This document shows positions 825 to 59,600 of a stretch of 64,000 nt of DNA, in pieces. Numbering within the stretch: the first letter of the stretch is position 1; every line of letters begins with the position of its first letter. Source of the stretch: Phorcus lineatus (lineage: Eukaryota > Mollusca > Gastropoda > Trochida > Trochidae); the NCBI GenBank assembly GCA_921293015.1, contig OV121089.1, forward strand, positions 42,394,520 through 42,458,519, in the 5' to 3' direction. Made by a program: the position numbers and the translations under genes. The notes below the pieces were generated by a model that saw only the letters and a list, made by a program, of their open reading frames with translations, had not been told where the DNA came from and ran no database searches.

Positions 825-18259
<17,435 letters not shown>

Positions 18260-36200: not shown

Positions 36201-39200
36201 TAACAGATTTCTGCCTACATAGCATAAAAAATAGAGCCATGGGCTCTGTAGCTCATCAGACTTTTGATAGAAATAGGTGTTGTGGTTTAGACCATGGGGT
36301 CATGGGCAGTGTAGGAAAGATAGCCTGTCCCAACGTCCGAGTTATTCACAATCAAATAAAAAGGCCCATTGCCCATTTGGGGTCAAGGGGTCACTGAACT
36401 TACAATTCAGAATCCCCATTGTCCAAGGAGTCTACACACAACTATTAAGCTATCAAGACCTTTTGGAACTGGAGAAGAAGATGAAAGTAGGATTTTAAGG
36501 TTTTGACCCCTGTGACCCCATTTGGGGTCAAGTGGTCACCAAACCTACAATTTAGAATCCCCAGTGTTCAAGGAGTCTTCACACAATTTTTCAGCTCTCT
36601 AGACCTTTTGGAACTAGGGAAAAAGATTAAATTAGGTTTTTTAGGTTTTGACCCCTGTGACCCCATTTGGCGTCATGGGGTCACCAAACCTACAATTTAG
36701 AATCCCCGTTGGCCAAGGAGTCTACACACACCTTTTCAGCTCGCTAGACCTTTTGGAACTAGGGAAAAAGATGAAATTAGGTTTTTTAGGTTTTGACCCC
36801 TGTGACCCCATGTGGGGTCATGGGGTCACCAAACCTACAATTTAGAATCTCCAGTGCCCAAGGAGTCTACACACAACTATTCAGCTCTCTGGACCTTTTG
36901 GAACTGGAGAAGAAGATGAAAATAGGTTTTTCATGTTTTGACCCCTGTGACCTCATTTGGGGTCATGGGGTCACAAAATCGACAATTTAGAATCTCCAGT
37001 GCCCAAGGAGTCTACACACAACTTTTCAGCTCTCTGGACCTTTTGGAACTGGAGAAGATTAAAATAGATTTTTAAGGTTTTGACCCTTGTGACCCCATTT
37101 GGGGTCATGGGGTCACGAAATCTACAATTTAGAATCCCCATTTGCCAAGGAGTATGCACATAAAATTTCAGCTCTCTAGAGTCATTGGTTCTGGAGAAGA
37201 AGTCGAAAAAGTGAAAAGTTTACGGATGGACGGACGGATGGACGGACGCCGGACGCCTTGCCATGCCATAAGCCCATCGGGTCTTTCAGACCTGATGAGC
37301 TAAAAAAGGGTTAAGAATAAACATATACATATGTAATCACATAAAAATAATTAGGATGGTTAATTGATTAAATGTATTTTATTTCAAATTCGAATGTATA
37401 CAATCCAGTCATTTCCCCACTTCATCGATAAATATATTCAGCTTTGAAAATATTGTCAATTGACATTAAACTTATTCACCAAAACTGTCACATCTCTAGC
37501 TTTGGGTGTGCAGTACTAGGAGAGGTGAGGTGATAAGGGTTTTTTTGAAGCCGGTTGCAAGAGTATATAACTAATATTTATAACGACTTCTAGTCTCATT
37601 GCAGCGAGAAAGCCTGCAACACCAGTGTGGCCATGCATTGTAGGGTAACTTGCGAGCAACCGCTGGAACAAGCATTCCATGAGTGAAACTGCGCTGAAAT
37701 CCAGTGTAGCATTGCACCCAAACCAGTACTTCAGACACAGTTACATAGTCAGTGGCGGTATTCAAACCACGGACCTCTTGATCTGAAGCCGAACACAATA
37801 ACTGCTGCGCTATCCAGCCCCCCAGTTCAGGAGAAGTAAAAAATAAGTTCAGTGATAATGAATAATGGGCTATACCATAAACCCATCTGGCTTTATAGGC
37901 CTGACAGTGAATATGCTTTATTTACTGCTGAAAACATAACTTAACTGATTTAAAAAATGATATATTTATTGACATAAGCAGGTTTAGATGACAATGACAT
38001 GACCATAACAGAGTTAATAGGCTTCGAACCTTGATCTCCCTTAGATTTTCAAATAAACTCTAGGTAAAGTTACTCATCACATTACTATGTCAATGTCAAT
38101 TGATTAAATGACACATAGAGTAGTTCATTTTGGTCTCCATGATAGTCCCAAAAGCACATGATTGGTCTGTCATAGGATGAAAGAAAATAACAATCCATCT
38201 CCTTCTTCAATACATTTCTTGATGAAAACTTGTTACAGAACAGTGGTGATCTGCTACAAACAGCTTTCTTCAAACTTTCTGAAACAAAAACAAGAAAGGT
38301 TAGACAATTACTACCATAAGTATGCTGATTTCAGAATCAGGGCAGCACATGAACAAACTCAAAGTAATTTTAATATAAAATCTACCTATAGTCTCAACTT
38401 ACAAATTGTAGTTAATGCCTCATCTTATACTATTGAAAAGCAAGTCTTGGTATAAATTCAACACTGCAAAAAAACATTTTTTCCAAAGACTGACTGAGTA
38501 TTTATCTAACCCTACCTATTTAAAAAAAAACTGGCATCCTTGATTTGTATCTTTGATAACAAGCCTCTAAATATTCAATATATTCAGAATAGAGTCTTGA
38601 GATTTCATTTGACTTGATAGTATTAAAAGGTGACTTTGTCAAAGGTCAATGTCCAAATATATATAGTCAGTATCAATCATTCCATTTTTGTGGAGAAATA
38701 CAGAACTGTCATGGGGTGATATGGTACACAAACAAGAAATTATAAGAAATCACAATATTGCTAAAAAGAATTATTTTTACCTTTTGAAGGCCTAGTTGTG
38801 AAAAACATTTGAACATCAGTTTTAAATATATATAAAAATGATAAATAAAAAACACCCGCTAAATTCAATTTTATTTCTATTTTCATGAGTTTTATAGTCT
38901 TGAGCCTTCACAAGAGTCTTGTTGATAAAAAAAAAAAAGATAAAAAGAAACATGCAATGAATAGCCAATGATATTTGTCAAGAATATATATGTAACTTAT
39001 ATGTTAAATTACCAAAATCACCTTCAATTTCAGTTTAAAATAATACAAATATAAACCACGCAAGAGAATGTAGGTTATTAATAATTTACCTTGATGAAAC
39101 TATGACTGCCACTTTTCAGCAGGGAAAGATGGGAATTAAAACTGCTACACATGATGAACATCTGGAAAATAAATTTAAAATATTTTAAATGATCAAAACA

Positions 39201-48530: not shown

Positions 48531-49790
48531 TTTTCACGATCATTGAATCAATGTTAGTTGAACTTAGTAATTTAATGCGCTTTACGAATCATTAAATCAT
48601 GCGAGTTCCTTTGATCATTTTAAAATTCATTGATTTATAGTTATTTCCTTGAAGCATTTTAACGACCATTGTATTTACGTTAGTTCCTTGAAGCATTTTA
48701 ACAATCATTGAATCAATACTATGTGTTTAAAATTTAAAAAGCATTAAATCACTCTATGTTCCTTAAAGAATTTCAACAAATATTGCATCTTTGTTAGTTT
48801 CGTGACGCATTTCAACAATCATTGTAAGTTCCCACAAGCAAAGAATCATTATTAGAAGTCTAAAGCATTTTAAGATTCATTGAATCATTGTAAGTTCCCA
48901 CAAGCAAAGATTCATTATAAGAAGTCTTAAGCATTTTAAGATTCATTGAATCATTGTAAGTTCCCACAAGCAAAGATTCATTATTAGAAGTCTAAAGCAT
49001 TTTAAGATTCATTTAATCATTGTAAGTTCCCACAAGCAAAGATTCATTATTAGAAGTCTAAAGCATTTTGAGATTCATTTAATCAGTGTAAGCTCCTTCT
49101 AGCATTTTAACAATCACTGAATCGTCATTAGAGCTCCTTGTGGCATTTTAAAAATAATTGAATTACTTGAAGCATTTTGAGAATCATTTAATCATCAGTA
49201 GGTCCTTAAGGTATCCTAACAATCATTGAATCAATGTTAGTTCCTTGAAGCATTTAACAATGACTGAATTATGGGTTGTTCTTTGAAGCATTTCAACAAT
49301 TATTGAATCAACGCTAGTTCCTTGAAGCTTTATAGCAATCATTAAATCATCATTAGTTCCTTGAAGAAATTTAACGATCATTAAGTTTCAGTAATTGAAG
49401 TATTTTATTGACGTTGGTTCCTTGAGGGATTTTGATAATAATTGCATCATCAGTAGTTCCTAAAGTACCCTAACAACCATTGATTCAATCTTAGTTCCTT
49501 ACAGCATTTAAAAATCACTGAATCATCGTTAGTTCCTGGAAGCATTATAACAATCATTGAATCATCATTAGTTCCTTGAAGCATTATAACAATCATTGAA
49601 CCATCATTAGTTCCTGGAAGCATTATAACAATCATTGAATCATCATTAGTTCCTTGAAGAAATTTAACAATCATTAAATTGGCAGTTCATTGAAGCATTT
49701 TATTGACGTTAGTTTCCTTGAAGCATTTTAACAACCATTGAAGTATCGTTAGTTCCTTGACTCATTTTAACATCCAATGAATCAGTGTAA
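48531..49790. repeat. Degenerate 39-bp minisatellite with a nested 66-bp higher-order unit
   Basis: The basic unit is about 39 bp, for example TTCCTTGAAGCATTATAACA then ATCATTGAATCATCATTAG, repeated roughly 30 times with much drift. From 48821 to about 49085 a 66-bp unit (TTGTAAGTTCCCACAAGCAA, TTATTAGAAGTCTAAAGC) is present four times and is nearly identical between copies, so it is younger. One minus-strand frame stays open for 75 codons because 39 is divisible by three; I do not think it is a gene. Confidence 0.85.
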
Positions 49791-50683: not shown

Positions 50684-50999
50684 AAAGGGGCGGAATAGCG
50701 CAATGGTTAGCGCTTTCGGCTTCGGATCAAGAGGTCCGTGGTTCGAACCTCGCCAGAGGCTCGGCAACTTTTTCTGCAGCAGTAAACACTTCTACATGCA
50801 GTTAGGTTTGGGTGCAAAGCTGCACTGGATTTCAGAGAGGTACCACCTGTGGCTCGCTAGTTCCAGCCGATGCTCGCAGGTTTCATCGCAACGCCATAGC
50901 CACAATGGTGTTGCGGGCTTTCTCCCTGCTATATTACTAGCAAGTATAAGTGAAATACTCTTGAAAGCGGCGTTAAAACCCAACTTACCTCACCTCTTC
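50684..50999 (+). mobile_element. tRNA-derived SINE, most complete copy
   Basis: A box (AATAGCGCAATGGTTAGCGC) and B box (GTGGTTCGAACCTCG) are intact and correctly spaced with TTCGGCTTCGGATCAAGAGG between. Body: GTTAGGTTTGGGTGCAAAGC, TTCCAGCCGATGCTCGCAGG, GTTGCGGGCTTTCTCCCTGC. Tail: GAAAGCGGCGTTAAAACCCA then ACTTACCTCACCTC. No clear target duplication. The GCGGCGTTAAA tail is like repeats I remember from gastropods, which is weak support for a mollusc source. Confidence 0.9.
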
Positions 51000-51142
51000 T
51001 ACTTAAGATATGCGGTTTCAATATGCCCAAGTTCGGCCCTGTCAACGCTAAGTTTCCCCCACTGACATCCCACTCACTCTGAGAAAACCTTAGCGCTGAT
51101 CCCATGTTCAGTTTATAAACAAAACGTCAGGGGCAATATGGG
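51000..51142. other. Spacer between SINE and two-gene transposon
   Basis: Unremarkable; ends at the proposed left terminal inverted repeat. Confidence 0.4.
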
Positions 51143-51842
51143 CAGTGCTTTCATTGAGGAACTAGGGAGGAATTTATTTAATTTATGTTACTTAATTATT
51201 TATTCACATTGATTACTATTTCAAACAAACACACAAACTTAATATTTGGATTACTTTGGAATTAGAAATAGACATTGACACTGAAATATGGTTTATTACT
51301 ACAAACATGTATAATCATTAATATCAAATAACGATGCATGAGCAACCATCAAAGGTGCATTAATATATTATATATAATAAATAACTCAAACAAGAACTCA
51401 TCCACTATTCACAGATTGTTTTACATTTTTGTGTGTCTATCCATGTATAACAACTTGACAAATGTTTAGAATAATATAGCGTAGGGTAGCGAATATATAC
51501 ATTGTACAAAAAATTTAGCTGTTATATATTGATACAATAAATATAATTAAGGACAACTTTGTCTTATCAGTTAAAAAATTGGCACAGGAACATTGATCAT
51601 AAATTAAATATGAAATATTTACAGGCAAAGTATAACTATTTACATTGTTTCAGTCGAATTGTATACTACAGCATGAATAATACACATTTTTGCTTAGGGT
51701 ACCAGTGTTTAACAATTTTTTTAGACATGAAAAGAGTGATTTGTTATCATAAAGTGAAACTTAAGTTACCATGTGTGAAGTTAGGATCCCGTGTTCAACT
51801 ACACTACATATATCACGCACACACAGGAAGATAATCAGTCTA

Positions 51843-53702
51843 TTAATCCAAGTCAGATTCTACTTCGCTTTCTGCTTCAATGTCTCCAGGGTCAATGTCT
51901 GCTTCAACTTCTCCTTGGTTTCTTAAAAGTTCAAAACAAAATGTATCCCAGACGTCGTCTACAAACTTGTAGGTTTTGGTTTGCAAAACTCTGTGTCCCG
52001 ATCTCCTTCGATTGTTCTGAACACGAACATACTCTCTCACAGATGTAGCTTGTCGGTCCACATGCTCCTGCCAGTCGAGGATAGCCAGCCCTATCTTGAT
52101 TTGGTACATGAGAGAATGGCAGTGAACTCTTTTACAAACATACATCACAATTGTGTTGTGGAATGATTCAATATAATGCGTATCACGACAGTTGACATAC
52201 TGATCTGGAAACTTGTACATGCAGAGGTTTTTGATGGCTCCTGTCAATAAATCTTCTGCTTTCCGCTCAGTGATTTTCACTCTAGAAAGGACATAGTTTG
52301 GTTGCTTGCATCGGGATGTTTCATGACAGTTGACATGATTGTCTTTGTAGTGTTCCACAATATTTTCCAGGGACTGTCTGAGGGCATGTGCATTACCATT
52401 ACAATTCTTCATGGCAAAGAATGTGTGGGTTTTTACAGGTCCAGCCTTGTCCTTCAGCTGTACATGCCAGTTTGTTCCGAGTGTTTTTTTAGGACCACTA
52501 CAAACCTTTGAAATTTCTTTTCGAACAGACTTTGCTGCATGCCAGGTATCAAATGAGTCGATCACTTCCTGATGGTTCTGTCTAAGGAAGGCACTCACTG
52601 ACGCATTCCGATCATGAGAGTGTATGTCGATCTTTATACTTTTCCTATCAAAATCCTGATACATTCTCTTTATCCCACCAATTTCATGGGTTTGTGATGA
52701 TCTCATCATTAGATCAGTCTTTGTCACATGCTGATAGTTGATAATTTTGTGGGTTTCCTGTCCAATAGCTGTGACATCTGAATGGAAGCTGTTTTTCCTG
52801 CATGCGTGACGTGCATCTGTCATCAAGTCCAACTTATCTCCTTCTGGGTATGCATTAACTGCTATCTCTTCTTCAACTGCTGTCTTCATACTAGCATCAC
52901 GTAGTTTTGTCACAGCCCTATGAAATGCTGGAAATAATTTGGTCCTGGAACGTTTGCCAGTTGTTCCAATTCCAGAGAATTTGCAGAATTTCTCATAGTG
53001 AATAGGGTTGATGCCACAGCATAAGTAAGCATGAACAAGCCTGTAGTTAATGTTGAAATCATTTGCCAAAGGTAGAGATGAAGACCAGAACACAGGGAAG
53101 GAATTCAACTTCAGTGACACCGGCTTGAGTACTATCTGTGCGACGTGTCCATTTTTGATATATTCGCTGACTTTTAGTGGACCATGAATTTGTGAAAGGC
53201 TACAGAGTTCAAAAAGCTTTGCTTTGGTGCAGACGAAGAGATCATCATCTAAATCCTCAAACTTGGTATCTGGTATGGCTTCATCTTCACCGTAATTTCC
53301 CTGATTTTTGCAATAACGATCAGTGATGTTCTGCGATGAGGAGTCCAGCGATTTCTTCAAGTCATTATATGATGAATTGATGAGTCTTAGAATCAGATCT
53401 GAAGATGATTTAAGGCAAAAAGAAGGTAACAAAGTTTTCAGCTTCTCCTCAAATTCCAGTTTGTCCTTTTCAGCAGAGAACTGAATTTCAAAGTTTTTCC
53501 TGTATCGCCTTCCGTATTCATAATCTTTGACGGTCCCGTCAGAAAGTCTCTTTCTGCATTTATGCCTATTTGTGATGTCACCCAGAGGTTTGTTCTCCAT
53601 GATAACGTTTTCAAGAGCTAGTTTCACAATACTCTGATGATGCTCCCAAGGCAATCTAAATTTCGACCAATCAGAAAAAAGTATCAAGAACTTGTGGACC
53701 AA
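51843..53702 (-). CDS. Transposon-encoded DDE-type transposase, 619 aa
   Basis: Single uninterrupted frame, unlike the multi-exon host genes. Candidate catalytic triad: D297 in MTDARHACRK, D364 in HSHDRNAS and E512 in HYIESFHN. Other conserved-looking blocks are SSQTHEIGGIKRMY (335-348), DSFDTWHAAKSVRKEI (382-397) and NWHVQLKDKA (411-420). Residues 451-465 (HYKDNHVNCHETSRC) form a Cys/His cluster that may bind zinc within the RNase-H-like fold. The C-terminus is acidic (ESEVESDLD). I recall this general D..H/DRN/DxWH..K pattern from unnamed transposase-like proteins of marine animals, but I cannot name the superfamily; a relation to Kolobok-type transposases is only a guess. ATG 53702 is the first in frame; an upstream coding exon is not excluded. 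Confidence 0.8.
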   Translation of the reverse strand: MVHKFLILFSDWSKFRLPWEHHQSIVKLALENVIMENKPLGDITNRHKCRKRLSDGTVKDYEYGRRYRKNFEIQFSAEKDKLEFEEKLKTLLPSFCLKSSSDLILRLINSSYNDLKKSLDSSSQNITDRYCKNQGNYGEDEAIPDTKFEDLDDDLFVCTKAKLFELCSLSQIHGPLKVSEYIKNGHVAQIVLKPVSLKLNSFPVFWSSSLPLANDFNINYRLVHAYLCCGINPIHYEKFCKFSGIGTTGKRSRTKLFPAFHRAVTKLRDASMKTAVEEEIAVNAYPEGDKLDLMTDARHACRKNSFHSDVTAIGQETHKIINYQHVTKTDLMMRSSQTHEIGGIKRMYQDFDRKSIKIDIHSHDRNASVSAFLRQNHQEVIDSFDTWHAAKSVRKEISKVCSGPKKTLGTNWHVQLKDKAGPVKTHTFFAMKNCNGNAHALRQSLENIVEHYKDNHVNCHETSRCKQPNYVLSRVKITERKAEDLLTGAIKNLCMYKFPDQYVNCRDTHYIESFHNTIVMYVCKRVHCHSLMYQIKIGLAILDWQEHVDRQATSVREYVRVQNNRRRSGHRVLQTKTYKFVDDVWDTFCFELLRNQGEVEADIDPGDIEAESEVESDLD

Positions 53703-53805
53703 TTAAAACACACCAATGATAGTGACTCATCATAATGTTTAGGTCAGATTTTGAAAAAGATTTTGGCGCTTTCAGTTCAAATATATTTGGCGGACTAATT
53801 CGAAT
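53703..53805. promoter_or_regulatory. Divergent promoter of the two-gene transposon
   Basis: 103 bp separates the two start codons. The stretch is rich in TTTTGGCGC and TTTGGCGG motifs (about 53760 and 53789), which look like E2F-type sites. A shared bidirectional promoter is inferred from geometry only. Confidence 0.45.
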
Positions 53806-54548
53806 ATGGCGGCCAAACAATATACATGCAAACTGGTTCTTTCCAGTGAAGATCTGGCTCAAGTACAGGAAATTCTCAAAAGAAATGGATTATCACATTG
53901 CATAACAGGTAAGTGAAATTTTTAAGTTTAATTTAATAGTTATTTGATGTCTAAAGAATTTTTGTTTAATAAGTCACTATTTAATCTTTTTCAAAAATGT
54001 TAGTCTCAGGTAAACCCTTACCTTATTTATGTTTAATATCTTATTATAATCAATATTCCATATTTGAGATCTTTAATTCTTTCATTTCAGAGATCGTGTG
54101 TAATACAGCACAGAAAGAACCTTGCAGAAAAAGCCAAAAGTTAAAATCAAAAAGGGTTGGTGAGGACCTCAGCAAATCAGGGCCCAAATTTCCAAAACCA
54201 GATGACAGCAAAACAACCACTGATGGTGAAAGATGTCCTCATTGTTTCATGAAGCCATGTGTTGCACATGTTAACCAAAATGCGACATTTGTTGGACCTG
54301 GTAATTTTGTGCCATCTAATAACAATCCGCCAATTAGACACCAACTTTACAAACGTTTTTGGAATGTTATTAATAATATGGGAGGCTGGCATATACCGGA
54401 CTACATTGAAAAGAAAGCTCAAATTGGTGGCGGGGATGATGTTATCAATCACCCACGAGAAGTAATGCCAGAATGTGTCTTGACTTTAGTGAGGACAAAG
54501 TATCCTAACCCAAAAGAAGTGCCCTACATGGAACACAAATGGGACTAA
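53806..54548 (+). CDS. Transposon companion protein, two exons, 186 aa
   Basis: Exons 53806-53908 and 54091-54548, joined in phase (GTAAGT donor, TTTCATTTCAG acceptor). The protein begins MAAKQYTCKL, has a basic Lys-rich segment around residues 40-75, a Cys/His cluster RCPHCFMKPCVAH (CxxCxxxxCxxH, possibly zinc-binding) and a conserved-looking C-terminal block with RHQLYKRFWNVINNMGGW, PECVLTLVRTKYPNP and ending MEHKWD. No catalytic motif is visible. Its head-to-head pairing with the transposase inside one set of terminal repeats suggests a DNA-binding or accessory role, as with the Myb-like second protein of Harbinger elements; that is inference. Poly(A) signal at 54628-54633. Confidence 0.72.
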
Positions 54549-54627
54549 ATCAAAATATTATTTGTACAGATTAAGTATTTTTAAATTTTTTTATGTGAAT
54601 GCATTTCTAATATTTCATACAAAAGAG

Positions 54628-54633
54628 AATAAA
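54628..54633 (+). terminator. Poly(A) signal of the companion gene (AATAAA)
   Basis: AATAAA 80 nt after the TAA stop of the companion gene, followed by TG/T-rich DNA (GTGCTTTTGTTTTCTG) about 20 nt later, and still inside the proposed transposon end. Confidence 0.55.
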
Positions 54634-54728
54634 ATGTATCTTTAAGACTAAATGATGTGCTTTTGTTTTCTGTAGTGAAATCTCTGCTTCATACTGTACT
54701 CCCTAACTCTCTATTAGAGGCAACACTG

Positions 54729-56610
54729 GCCATCGTTTGTCAGCACAAGCTGATAAGCTCTGTCCCAACATAAACAATTAGGTCTTCAGGAGTGGAGCCT
54801 TGACATTCTCCCTGGTAGAAGAACTTGGGCGATCATAAATGTCTCATACGATGAAGCATTTCGAAGTCGCGTTCATACAAATTCATATGAAGGAACCAAT
54901 AAGGATGCAGGCATTCAGGAAAATGTCTTATTATGTTTGAATAACACGTTTTGAAATATAATGACAACTAAACATTGTAAGACGTGTTGAAAAGTTTTCT
55001 TGGTGAGTCAATACAATAGATCGGCAAAGGTCAAGCCCTGCAAAATTGACTAGATCTTGAAAAAAAAGCAAAATAAAAATTGGCGTTCAAAGATCTCGAA
55101 AATTCTGTTGAAAGCAAGAGGTCACCGGACGAAACACATGATAAAGAGCTCTACCGTGTATGGTAGTTTTCCTTCTTAGGTCTAATCTAACTTACATAAT
55201 GATAAGGTCATGAACCCTCAAACATAATCTCTACTCATTAATCTACGGAAAAGCGACCTCGTCAAATGAAGGAACAAGCGTGGTTCATTCCTGAAGAAAC
55301 CTGTGATGACGATGGGCATAAACCTTGGTTTCTGAACATTTGAAGGTGAAGGTTAAATTAGGACGTTTATTTAAAACTGCTGTATTCCTTGTCTCATAAA
55401 CTTAATTCTGTTAGTCATATGACTGTGCTTTTAATTTTTTTTATAGAAAAACAAGATAACAAATTGACGTCCTTAATGAGTCTATTTGTTGAAATAAATG
55501 TTATTGAATATCATCCTTGAAAGATATGGTCTTGCTTCCTTTATTGCAAGCATACTTTTCGTATTTCATTGAATATGTATTCCGTTGTAGTATTTAACAC
55601 GTTTTGATATCGCAGGTGTTAAGCTATAGCACAGCAGATTACCGTATTTCCTCAAATACAACCCAGGTATCAAATATAACTCAGGACTCTAATACGATGG
55701 TATATACAAACCGGGTATATCACTCGTATACCAGTTGAACACAATCTGGGTCTCGAACAGGACCCCGGGGGTAAGGATATGTTGAACGTAACCCCGTTTG
55801 TTGTTTTCGAGGAAATATGGTAGATCAAATCGATCTATTACTCTGTGTAAATAGTAAGAACAACTTGAATGAGAACATCGATGATAAAGTTGGAATAAGA
55901 GTATTTATCATTTCTGAAACGAAAAGATGAGGAACAAAGTATTACTTCAAATGGCCTAACCTTGCGATATACTGTCCCAGGAGTTGACACTGCAAACGGT
56001 TGTGTCAACACCACGTGTGACCTTGCTTGCGGTCTGTCCACATAAAAATTTAGACAATATTATATATACGCCTTGACACAGGATTGTATTTGCACAACAA
56101 GAGTAAAGGTTTTCATAATCGAGTCCCAGATTTAATTTCATAGAAATATACCTCAATAATCACAATACCTTGAACAATGGATAAAATAGGGTTATGCGAT
56201 CATGTCAAACTACTACGAGTAATTGTTAAGGCATGAGAAACCTCGAGAGCTGGTATCTACAGTTATGCAGAAGGCGTAGTGAGATGTCAGTGTGTAGTCT
56301 AATCCGTTTTCATTGTGTTATTTTGTACGTGTTGATAGTGTATTGTGGTCTCTTTGTTCGTTTAGGTGTCTGCTTTGTGTAGTGTGATCTTCAATGTAGA
56401 GAATTATGAGTTGAGCTTCTCTCATTCAAGCAAAGTTGTCAAATTGAGATTTAACATCAAGTTTTTAGATATCCTTATTTTTCAGTTGAGAAAATAGTTC
56501 ACATCTGAACTCCGTGTTGGAGAGGACGTCGGACGGAATCAACTTGCAAACTCTGAAGATAAAGAATCCCCTCGTTAAGCTCCCAAGTTAGATCCTATAT
56601 CAGCGTCACG
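54729..56610. other. Intergenic DNA and 5' flank of the PIPOX-like gene
   Basis: No gene recognised. Contains a small MITE at 55640-55822. The last ~100 bp before ATG 56611 is probably 5' UTR. No TATA box or initiator I would defend. Confidence 0.5.
55640..55822. mobile_element. Small TA-flanked MITE
   Basis: Inverted ends CCGTATTTCCTC and GAGGAAATATGG (11 of 12) immediately bordered by TA on both sides, the signature of Tc1/mariner-type insertion. About 180 bp, no ORF. Confidence 0.7.
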
Positions 56611-59600
56611 ATGTCCGACGTTTACGACGTGGTGGTGGTTGGAGCAGGTGTAGAGGGATCGGCGGCAGCGTACAACCTCGCCAAGAGGGGCAAGAAAACG
56701 CTTCTGTTAGAACAGGTAACGTGTATATCATCACAATATCCATATTTTACAATGTTATATTTACACACAAAAAATGGTTTACAGACAATCTGTCCACCCC
56801 TGTCTCGGGCATGTTTTTCATATTTTGTCACCGACATACTATTTCTAAGTAGTATGGACAGTGCATAATGAACTCTAAAGTGAGGTAAAACAGAAAATTT
56901 GCATTCATCAACTCGACATTTGAAGCATGCATAGTTCAATAATCCACTTTTTTACCTTCTGCGCTCTAGTTGGGCTCATGTATAAGCCCACCCCCTGAGT
57001 TAGTTTAGGTTACAAACGCGAGCAAACTGGCCCTGCCAACTCGTCCATCGGGTCTTCACGTCCGTTTTGTCGAGTTGGTAAGCTATTAGACCAGTCAGTG
57101 CTGGCGCTGGTTACCTAACGATGTGGGTAGAATCACATTCAAATTAAATTTGACTATTTTTGACAGGGTGGTTCTTGACAGACAGACAGACAGACTTATT
57201 TGTATATAAGTTGCCATGTGGCTAATAGTGCATGTTTAAAATAAGTACAACCGATATGCACTATCTGTGATGTATTGTCAACTGCAGACCAATAAACATC
57301 CATTAACAGTTATCATTTTAAATGTTTGGTACAACAAAGTAGCTAAATTGAATAACAAAGAACCGTAAAAAGGGCTGTATTTCCAAATTGCTTGAGGTGT
57401 ATATTATTATCAGGGATATGAGTGTATTATTACATGGACGATAACTTACTCGAAGGAGTATACAGACATTCTTGGTCAACTTTGACGTTATTATTAGAAT
57501 ATGGTTTAATAATGCTATCCGGTATATCCCTTTCCCCTCTGTTTCAGTTCCCCCTCCCCCACAGTAGAGGCAGCTCCCACGGTCAGTCCCGCATCACGAG
57601 AAAGGCGTACCCCCAGGACTTCTACACAGAGATGATGCACGAAGCCACAGAGGTCTGGAGACAACTGGAGAGGGACGCGGGATGGGAGATTTTCAAGTGA
57701 GACCTCAATATGTGATATCATAAAATGTATCATTTAACTGATTAATGCAAGAGGGTTGTTGAGTTGCTTCCCCTGCAAGTCACAACTCCCGCCACTCTCA
57801 ATCACTTTCTAGTTTAGGTCTTGCTACAATGCGCAAACATTTGTTTTTCGAGTGCAGCGCCCTCATCGGCGATAAAGAGCTAGTTAGCAACTTCCAGGAG
57901 ATTTCAAGTCCAGATACAGTAGCTTGAAGAGCCGGCACACCAAAGTTGAATAAACGCAGCAGGGCTTCAATTAGCCAGTGAGGCAGGCGCGAGTTACAGC
58001 TTGCGTGGGAAGTTGGTTGATCAGGTGGGGGAAACATTGTGGAGTGGGCAGGACGAAATGAATGCAATTAGTTTACCAATCTTTACTTAATCAATCACCT
58101 CTGTTCTTATTTTGACATTCCCACATAACCAACAGACAGACAGGGTACCTTGCCATTGGACCGTATAAGGGCACATTCCTTGAAGAGAATGCGACGTCTT
58201 TGAAACGGAATAACGCCCAGTTCGACTATCTGGCCCCTCCCGAGTTCAGGAGACGCTTCCCAATGCTCGCCTACCCAGAAAACTTCGGGGGGATCGTTGA
58301 CCCAGACGGGGGGATCCTAAGAGCGGATAAAGCGCTGAGAGCATATCATGTAAGTGGTAAATAAGAAAATGTCCGAGAGATTTAAGTAGATGAAAATAAG
58401 TTGATTATAACACAAAGGGTGTAACCTTTTGACCAAGGCTAAAAATGGATATAGTAAATAGTGTTGATAAATTGATATCGACGTTGATTTTATATAGTGG
58501 TGTAACAATTTATCGATAGTATCGATGTTTGCATCGTCTACTACGCGATACGAGTGCATCGATACAAAACATGTTTAGACAATATATCAGGATATTTATA
58601 TCGTGAGGGTCCACGATACATCGATGTATCGCCATAAGAGACAATTTATCCCGATACTGTTAACATAATTTGTTTCAAACAACTAATTATAAAAGCTAAA
58701 AAGGTTTTTCTTCTATTTCAGAGATAACAGTGATTAGAACAGAAAGAGAAATTTTATGACATTTTTGATATGTTATATGTTATTTCACAGTGTCTCTAAT
58801 TTTGTGATTCCCTTCATGTGATATATTTGACAATTTGGTATCTAAGGATTAACGTTACTGTTCTATGTCCTATCCATAGTTCTTTCATAAGCTATAGAGA
58901 ATCCGGGCAGGATACGTATTGTATCGCAACCACTGTAGCGTGATGATAATCGTCTCGCAGGTTCCTTGGCAATAATTCCATGATATATCGGCTCGCCTAA
59001 TGAAACTAGAATCGGGATATATTGTCTCGCAACTAAGGCCAGGATACACAGGTCTAATTTTATACATCATTCAAAGAGAGTGAGTCATTGATTGACTGTA
59101 TTTTGACAGTTAGACTCAAAGGTTTTGCATTATATTGAGGTCATGCATTTTTTTAATTATTGCATTGTGATAACATCAGAAATTAGCATGTTGATTATTG
59201 TGAATTGTTATTTCAGAGACATTATAGATTTAGATAGAAAATGTATGCTTAAAACTTGTAAATAAAAAATTGCTAGCAAACAAGTACTCAAAAAAATATT
59301 AGGTAGGTAAAGGAAAAGTCTCACTATTATCGTTTGCAGCAAGTCTTAATCACCAAATTGATGACAATAAAAACATACGTGTTGTAAAAAAATATCTATA
59401 TATTTCATTTTATTAGATATGTTCTATATGTATTTTTATCCTATAATTATTCTTACAATTTCACCTTGAAATAACACTGACAATAGGGCATCTCTACATT
59501 ATGCAGCTTTAACCCTGTCCTATTTTCGCTAGCGAAGCATAGGGCTACCTGTCAATGAATATAGGTCGTTTTAAATAGTACGTGACCTGGACAATTATGT

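Follow-up and report, generated by a model that had tools for sequence, protein, structure and literature searches.

The window analysed here, a 64,000-nucleotide stretch of the genome of the gastropod Phorcus lineatus, contains a divergent pair of genes, one for a DDE transposase and one for a cysteine-containing companion protein, enclosed in a mobile element. The features of this locus, in positions of the window, are as follows.

51025..54830, no strand: whole element, very probably of Kolobok type, 3806 bp, delimited by the end points of homology with loci L009, L012 and L018
51025..51048, plus strand: left terminal region, GCCCAAGTTC..., with subterminal TGTCAACGC
51843..53600, minus strand: coding sequence of the DDE transposase, 585 aa from the ATG at 53600 to the stop (Pfam PF20700, E 3.8e-10)
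53601..53805, no strand: region between the two start codons, 205 bp, presumably a bidirectional promoter
53806..53908, plus strand: exon 1 of the KolX-like companion, also found as a separate match in copies on contigs C25 (two), C32, C2 and C11
54091..54548, plus strand: exon 2 of the companion, with C83-x2-C86-x4-C91 ... R117, Y121 ... P161-x-C163 ... R169, Y172-P173
54797..54830, minus strand: right terminal region, inverted GCCCAAGTTC..., with subterminal TGTCAAGGC

The gene pair and its copies

A first-pass annotation of this DNA had reported a minus-strand frame of 619 codons without a stop, and this frame is indeed present at 51843–53702. The first in-frame ATG occurs at position 53600. 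Loci L009, L010, L011 and L013 share the N-terminus MENKPLGDIT and differ in the residues that precede it, and position 53600 is therefore taken as the start; the start codons of the two genes consequently lie 205 bp apart, and not 103 bp as previously given. Counted from this ATG, the protein contains D262, D330, D351xxH354, H417/H422/C425/C431 and E478. In the numbering of the 619-residue frame the acidic residues and the DxxH motif are D296, D364, D385xxH388 and E512, so that the second and third members of the proposed D297/D364/E512 triad are correct and the first is off by one. The D-D-E triad, the DxxH that follows the second aspartate, and the H-x4-H-x2-C-x5-C arrangement between DxxH and the glutamate are invariant in an alignment of six transposase sequences from this genome, the other five of which are 33–79% identical to the window protein. 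The H-H-C-C residues are candidate zinc ligands.

The diverging two-exon gene of 186 aa also stands as described, with a GT-AG intron between its exons. C83, C86, C91 and C163 are the four cysteines invariant across eight aligned companions. No Pfam family spanning the whole companion was found, and searches of the PDB returned nothing credible by sequence for the transposase and, for the companion, no credible match by sequence and none by profile. Searches of viral contigs with both proteins, and of prokaryote genome contigs with the transposase, found no relatives. Single-sequence AlphaFold models were unusable for both the transposase (pLDDT 34) and companion exon 2 (pLDDT 36).

A search of the snail's own genome (957.8 Mb in 74 contigs; E ≤ 0.001) recovered at least 72 stretches matching the transposase and at least 43 matching the companion, these counts being lower bounds because only the best candidates were scored. 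When merged by strand and distance, the matches form at least 44 transposase loci and at least 36 companion loci, in which fragments of one copy may count separately. Of the 36 companion loci, among which that of the window is counted, 28 have a transposase match within 4 kb and 8 do not. At 26 the two are no more than 1 kb apart, which bears out the original description of a head-to-head two-gene DNA transposon in which a DDE transposase is accompanied by a conserved partner. As to whether the genes are always adjacent and divergent, a check proposed with that description, 18 of these 26 pairs are divergent and in the other 8 the companion lies downstream on the same strand. The two companion loci with a transposase at 2.7 and 4.0 kb are doubtful, as many fragments crowd the region around them. 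No companion match was seen near 18 of the merged transposase loci, most of which are fragments.

Two observations on the distribution of these copies may be recorded here. At L040 (C15:42074800-42077600), a single open frame of 546 codons runs through the beginning of a transposase and the companion downstream of it, apparently through deletion of the last part of the transposase. Contig C25 carries 11 of the 44 transposase loci and 6 of the 36 companion loci within about 0.36 Mb (approximately 3.36–3.71 Mb), many of them short fragments; we speculate that this cluster is a transposon graveyard, and maybe a piRNA cluster.

Ends of the element and target site

Alignment of genomic copies, which the first-pass annotation had proposed as a way of fixing the ends and the target duplication, succeeded for the ends and for TTAA by way of the relatives, but the window copy itself has no TTAA. 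Homology with the relatives continues to 51025 and 54830, where they show AGCCCAAG...CTTGGGCT flanked by TTAA; in the window copy, TTAA and the terminal A are missing from either end. The earlier bounds of 51143 and 54728 thus fall 118 and 102 bp inside the true ends. TTAA|AGCCCAAG is present at both ends of L010, L011, L012 and the broken relative L018, and the right end of L013, the nearest relative of the window copy, is without TTAA. Within the element, the subterminal TGTCAAGGC of the right end sits 10 bp deeper inward than its left-end counterpart TGTCAACGC.

At four further loci (L041, L014, L015 and L016), TTAA|RR ends were sought by comparing all pairs and keeping the best one. L041 has a perfect 15-bp inverted repeat with AG and TTAA, L014 has a weaker inverted repeat of 8 bp with AG and TTAA at its candidate ends, and this search gave nothing convincing for L015 or L016. 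Termini of the form AG...CT are found in L010, L011, L012, L018, L041 and L014, the last two under a search that demanded RR.

The imperfect inverted repeats of about 30 bp that had been read as the ends do not bracket other genomic copies, in which homology extends past both. Their alignment score is 27, a value reached by all 300 dinucleotide-shuffled versions of the flanks in a test that took the best local alignment at any position between flanks of 842 and 352 bp; the best score anywhere in the real flanks is 69, which 37 of the 300 shuffles reached. Since shuffled flanks match a score of 27, these repeats are no evidence of ends. Candidate ends AACT|AGGGAG at 51164/54704 (one observed, 1.13 expected) were disproved by the genome copies, as were TTAA pairs chosen from the window alone.

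We also note an irregular unit at L009 (element 2723-6372). Its left end reads CTGTTT|GCCC, TTAA is kept on the right only, and the right end reads CTTGGGCTTTAA|TGTTT. The unit is thus bordered by a 5-bp direct repeat and has a one-sided TTAA, as if part of its former target had travelled with it.

Superfamily placement and age

The first-pass annotation could not assign the element to a family. The combination of TTAA, 5′-AG, a D-D-E triad with DxxH, a zinc-finger-like motif and a KolX-like companion allows it to be placed in Kolobok, and we conclude with high confidence that an autonomous DNA transposon of this superfamily, with a KolX-like companion, is present here as an ageing copy. Kojima and Bao (PMC9587614) characterize Kolobok by TTAA, 5′-RR, a C/DxxH signature and a zinc finger with an extremely conserved cysteine as third ligand, and the C/DxxH signature is confirmed as a shared one in a second source (PMC3706591). 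The window copy is without TTAA, as is the right end of L013, and the placement therefore rests on the other relatives.

Other transposons, such as Harbinger and ISL2EU, likewise carry an additional protein, but the TTAA duplication and the motif set point to Kolobok instead. A more pointed alternative is that the element belongs to a new superfamily, or to Mutator/MULE with an unrelated companion. For the window transposase Pfam gives a single family above cut-off, PF20700, which is named ‘Mutator-like transposase’ and which also appears in four of the five other transposase-bearing frames scanned (L014 gave no match); our literature search found nothing that joins Kolobok with PF20700 or a ‘Mutator-like transposase domain’. 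MULE target duplications are longer than TTAA, however, and the relatives (the L009-type copies, L018 and L041) have TTAA and 5′-AG and not such a longer duplication. The H-H-C-C residues between DxxH and the glutamate, moreover, match the Kolobok zinc finger, which PMC9587614 gives as absent from MuDR, P and hAT. We consider this alternative very unlikely, and Kolobok remains the preferred placement.

Within Kolobok, one of the closest described counterparts is the Kol0 lineage with KolX (Kolobok-1_XT), for which PMC9587614 gives the same DDE triad and DxxH, a zinc-finger-like motif before the glutamate, TTAA and 5′-RR, as well as a second gene encoding a ballast-like protein, which the companion resembles in its landmark residues. 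The KolX of that lineage has seven conserved zinc-ligand cysteines, whereas four are invariant in the eight companions aligned here. The XKol or T2 Kolobok elements of Xenopus, described in PMC6004289, share the TTAA duplication, AG termini, DDE triad and zinc-finger motif but usually have a THAP domain, and their motif is H2CH; in the window family the last putative ligand is a cysteine and no THAP domain was found. Pfam detected none in the six transposase-bearing frames scanned (a set from which L039 was left out), although in the longer families a THAP domain may be encoded by an upstream exon that escaped recognition. THAP is in any case not a universal feature of Kolobok. KolobokP is marked by long terminal direct repeats and a His-Me finger nuclease. 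Here, L009 gave one aligned stretch with each of L010, L011 and L012 and no repeat reaching 450 bp, and Pfam identified no nuclease in the two window proteins.

L010, L011 and L012 each match L009 over about 3650 bp, with sharp ends and 99.45–99.73% identity (in comparisons of L009 against the other three, not of all pairs), and this subfamily is about 76% identical to the window copy in DNA. L013 is 96.0–97.7% identical to the window copy and the broken L018 about 91% over its two longest pieces. The transposase frame is open from the ATG in L009, L010 and L011, the open stretch of L012 starts past the N-terminus, and companion exon 2 is open in all four. With 99.5–99.7% identity to L009 and three of four transposase frames open, the L009–L012 subfamily looks recently active. 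The recent activity that had been suggested for the window copy itself is unsupported: TTAA and the terminal A are gone, and the copy may not be mobile with such incomplete termini.

When the window copy is compared with L009, the transposase has a dN/dS of 0.11 (dS 1.04) and companion exon 2 one of 0.18 (dS 0.65). Both genes have therefore been under purifying selection between subfamilies, and both proteins were kept during the history of the element. Since its insertion, the window copy shows no sign of constraint, the numbers being small: dN/dS is 1.4 against L013 and 0.73 against L018, and codon changes found only in the window copy number 1 synonymous and 6 non-synonymous where L013 and L018 agree, and 0 and 4 where L013 and L009 agree. 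These counts bear on a second alternative, in which the host recruited this copy as a domesticated gene pair. In favour of domestication, the two frames have stayed open despite the loss of TTAA and the terminal A at both ends. Set against this are the apparently unconstrained changes specific to the window copy, few as they are, and the 96.0–97.7% identity to L013, which leaves little time for decay; we regard recruitment by the host as extremely improbable, and the intact frames of the window copy are best read as a mark of youth rather than of host use.

The companion protein and its possible role

The companion resembles KolX, the known second protein of Kolobok, which according to PMC9587614 has a ballast fold and seven cysteines in the Kol0 lineage and occurs in a few piggyBac families in a version without most of the cysteines. 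This was the only paper on the KolX protein recognised among the matches listed. Comparison with the cytoplasmic ballast of P2X7, for which Rump et al. (PMC7016195) list positions conserved across animals, places R546, Y550, Y/F553, I/V568 and P570 in register with window residues R117, Y121, F124, V159 and P161, and C572, R578, F/Y581 and P582 in register with C163, R169, Y172 and P173. H547 is kept in the window copy too. W559 can be matched to W134 only with a shift of four residues, and A549 is lost. The same paper assigns a GDP-binding region to the ballast; R574 and K583, which contact GDP in P2X7, are absent from the window companion.

A paired pattern, R-x3-Y-x2-[YF] followed by P-x-C-x5-R-x2-[YF]-P, is found in P2X7 and in all eight of the companions aligned. 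When the window protein was shuffled 200,000 times, the paired pattern arose 0 times and its second half alone 23 times, the pattern having been written after the likeness to P2X7 had been noticed. L039, a downstream-type companion outside the set of eight, departs from it at a single position. Formal comparisons gave weak results. PF20478 (P2RX7_C) matched one of the eight companions, with an E of only 0.22, at the corresponding end of the model, and profile–profile alignment to P2X7 with hhalign gave a probability of 2% and a P of 0.024; 2 of 100 column shuffles outscored it. We therefore call the protein KolX-like rather than KolX. Relative to the P2X7 ballast, the ZCD proteins and Nanor (PMC7016195), the companion has the landmark residues in register but lacks the first cysteine cluster and the channel, and the similarity is below significance.

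These features suggest the following mechanism. The transposase, a DDE enzyme that is RNase H-like to judge by its family, would bind the AGCCCAAG termini and pair the AG...CT ends, and the element would have inserted at TTAA sites with duplication of TTAA, probably through the cut-and-paste chemistry of its superfamily. The divergent companion would be a KolX-type accessory protein with a C-terminal domain related to the P2X7 ballast and probably of the same fold; its single four-cysteine site would probably hold one zinc. It most likely joins the transposase in the transposition complex, and it would probably do so via the C-terminal domain.

A more specific role may be imagined by analogy, because the P2X7 ballast has a GDP-binding region and the P-element transposase needs GTP to bring the end of the transposon into its active site (PMC7776569). 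The P-element enzyme also shares the C/DxxH signature with Kolobok (PMC3706591). The four-cysteine KolX could on these grounds be a detachable transposase subunit of a THAP-less Kolobok branch, sensing guanine nucleotides or positioning the ends; we rate this as highly speculative and very improbable. If it were true, KolX could provide in trans a function that is integral to the P-element enzyme, and the companion would represent a one-zinc version of the fold that has been proposed as the source of the P2X7 tail.

What is reported here is mostly a correction, since the superfamily and the type of partner protein have both been described already. What is added is a genome whose several Kolobok families keep a KolX-like gene beside the transposase in two arrangements, together with a companion that has only four invariant cysteines; both provide test material for the function of KolX and for the published proposal of a KolX origin of the P2X7 tail.

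The remainder of the window contains three tandem arrays.

17151-17495: tandem array with a period of 41 bp
36372-37180: tandem array with a period of 145 bp
48604-49679: tandem array with a period of about 27–117 bp

Close to the element, positions 50689-50755 hold a tRNA-like sequence of 27.6 bits, under the Rfam gathering score of 29, which may form the head of a SINE; its surroundings are found again in L012 and, in part, in L018. Two frames resemble exons of host genes, one at 3568-4221 with an ABC transporter nucleotide-binding domain and one at 56611-56868 with the N-terminus of an FAD-dependent oxidoreductase.
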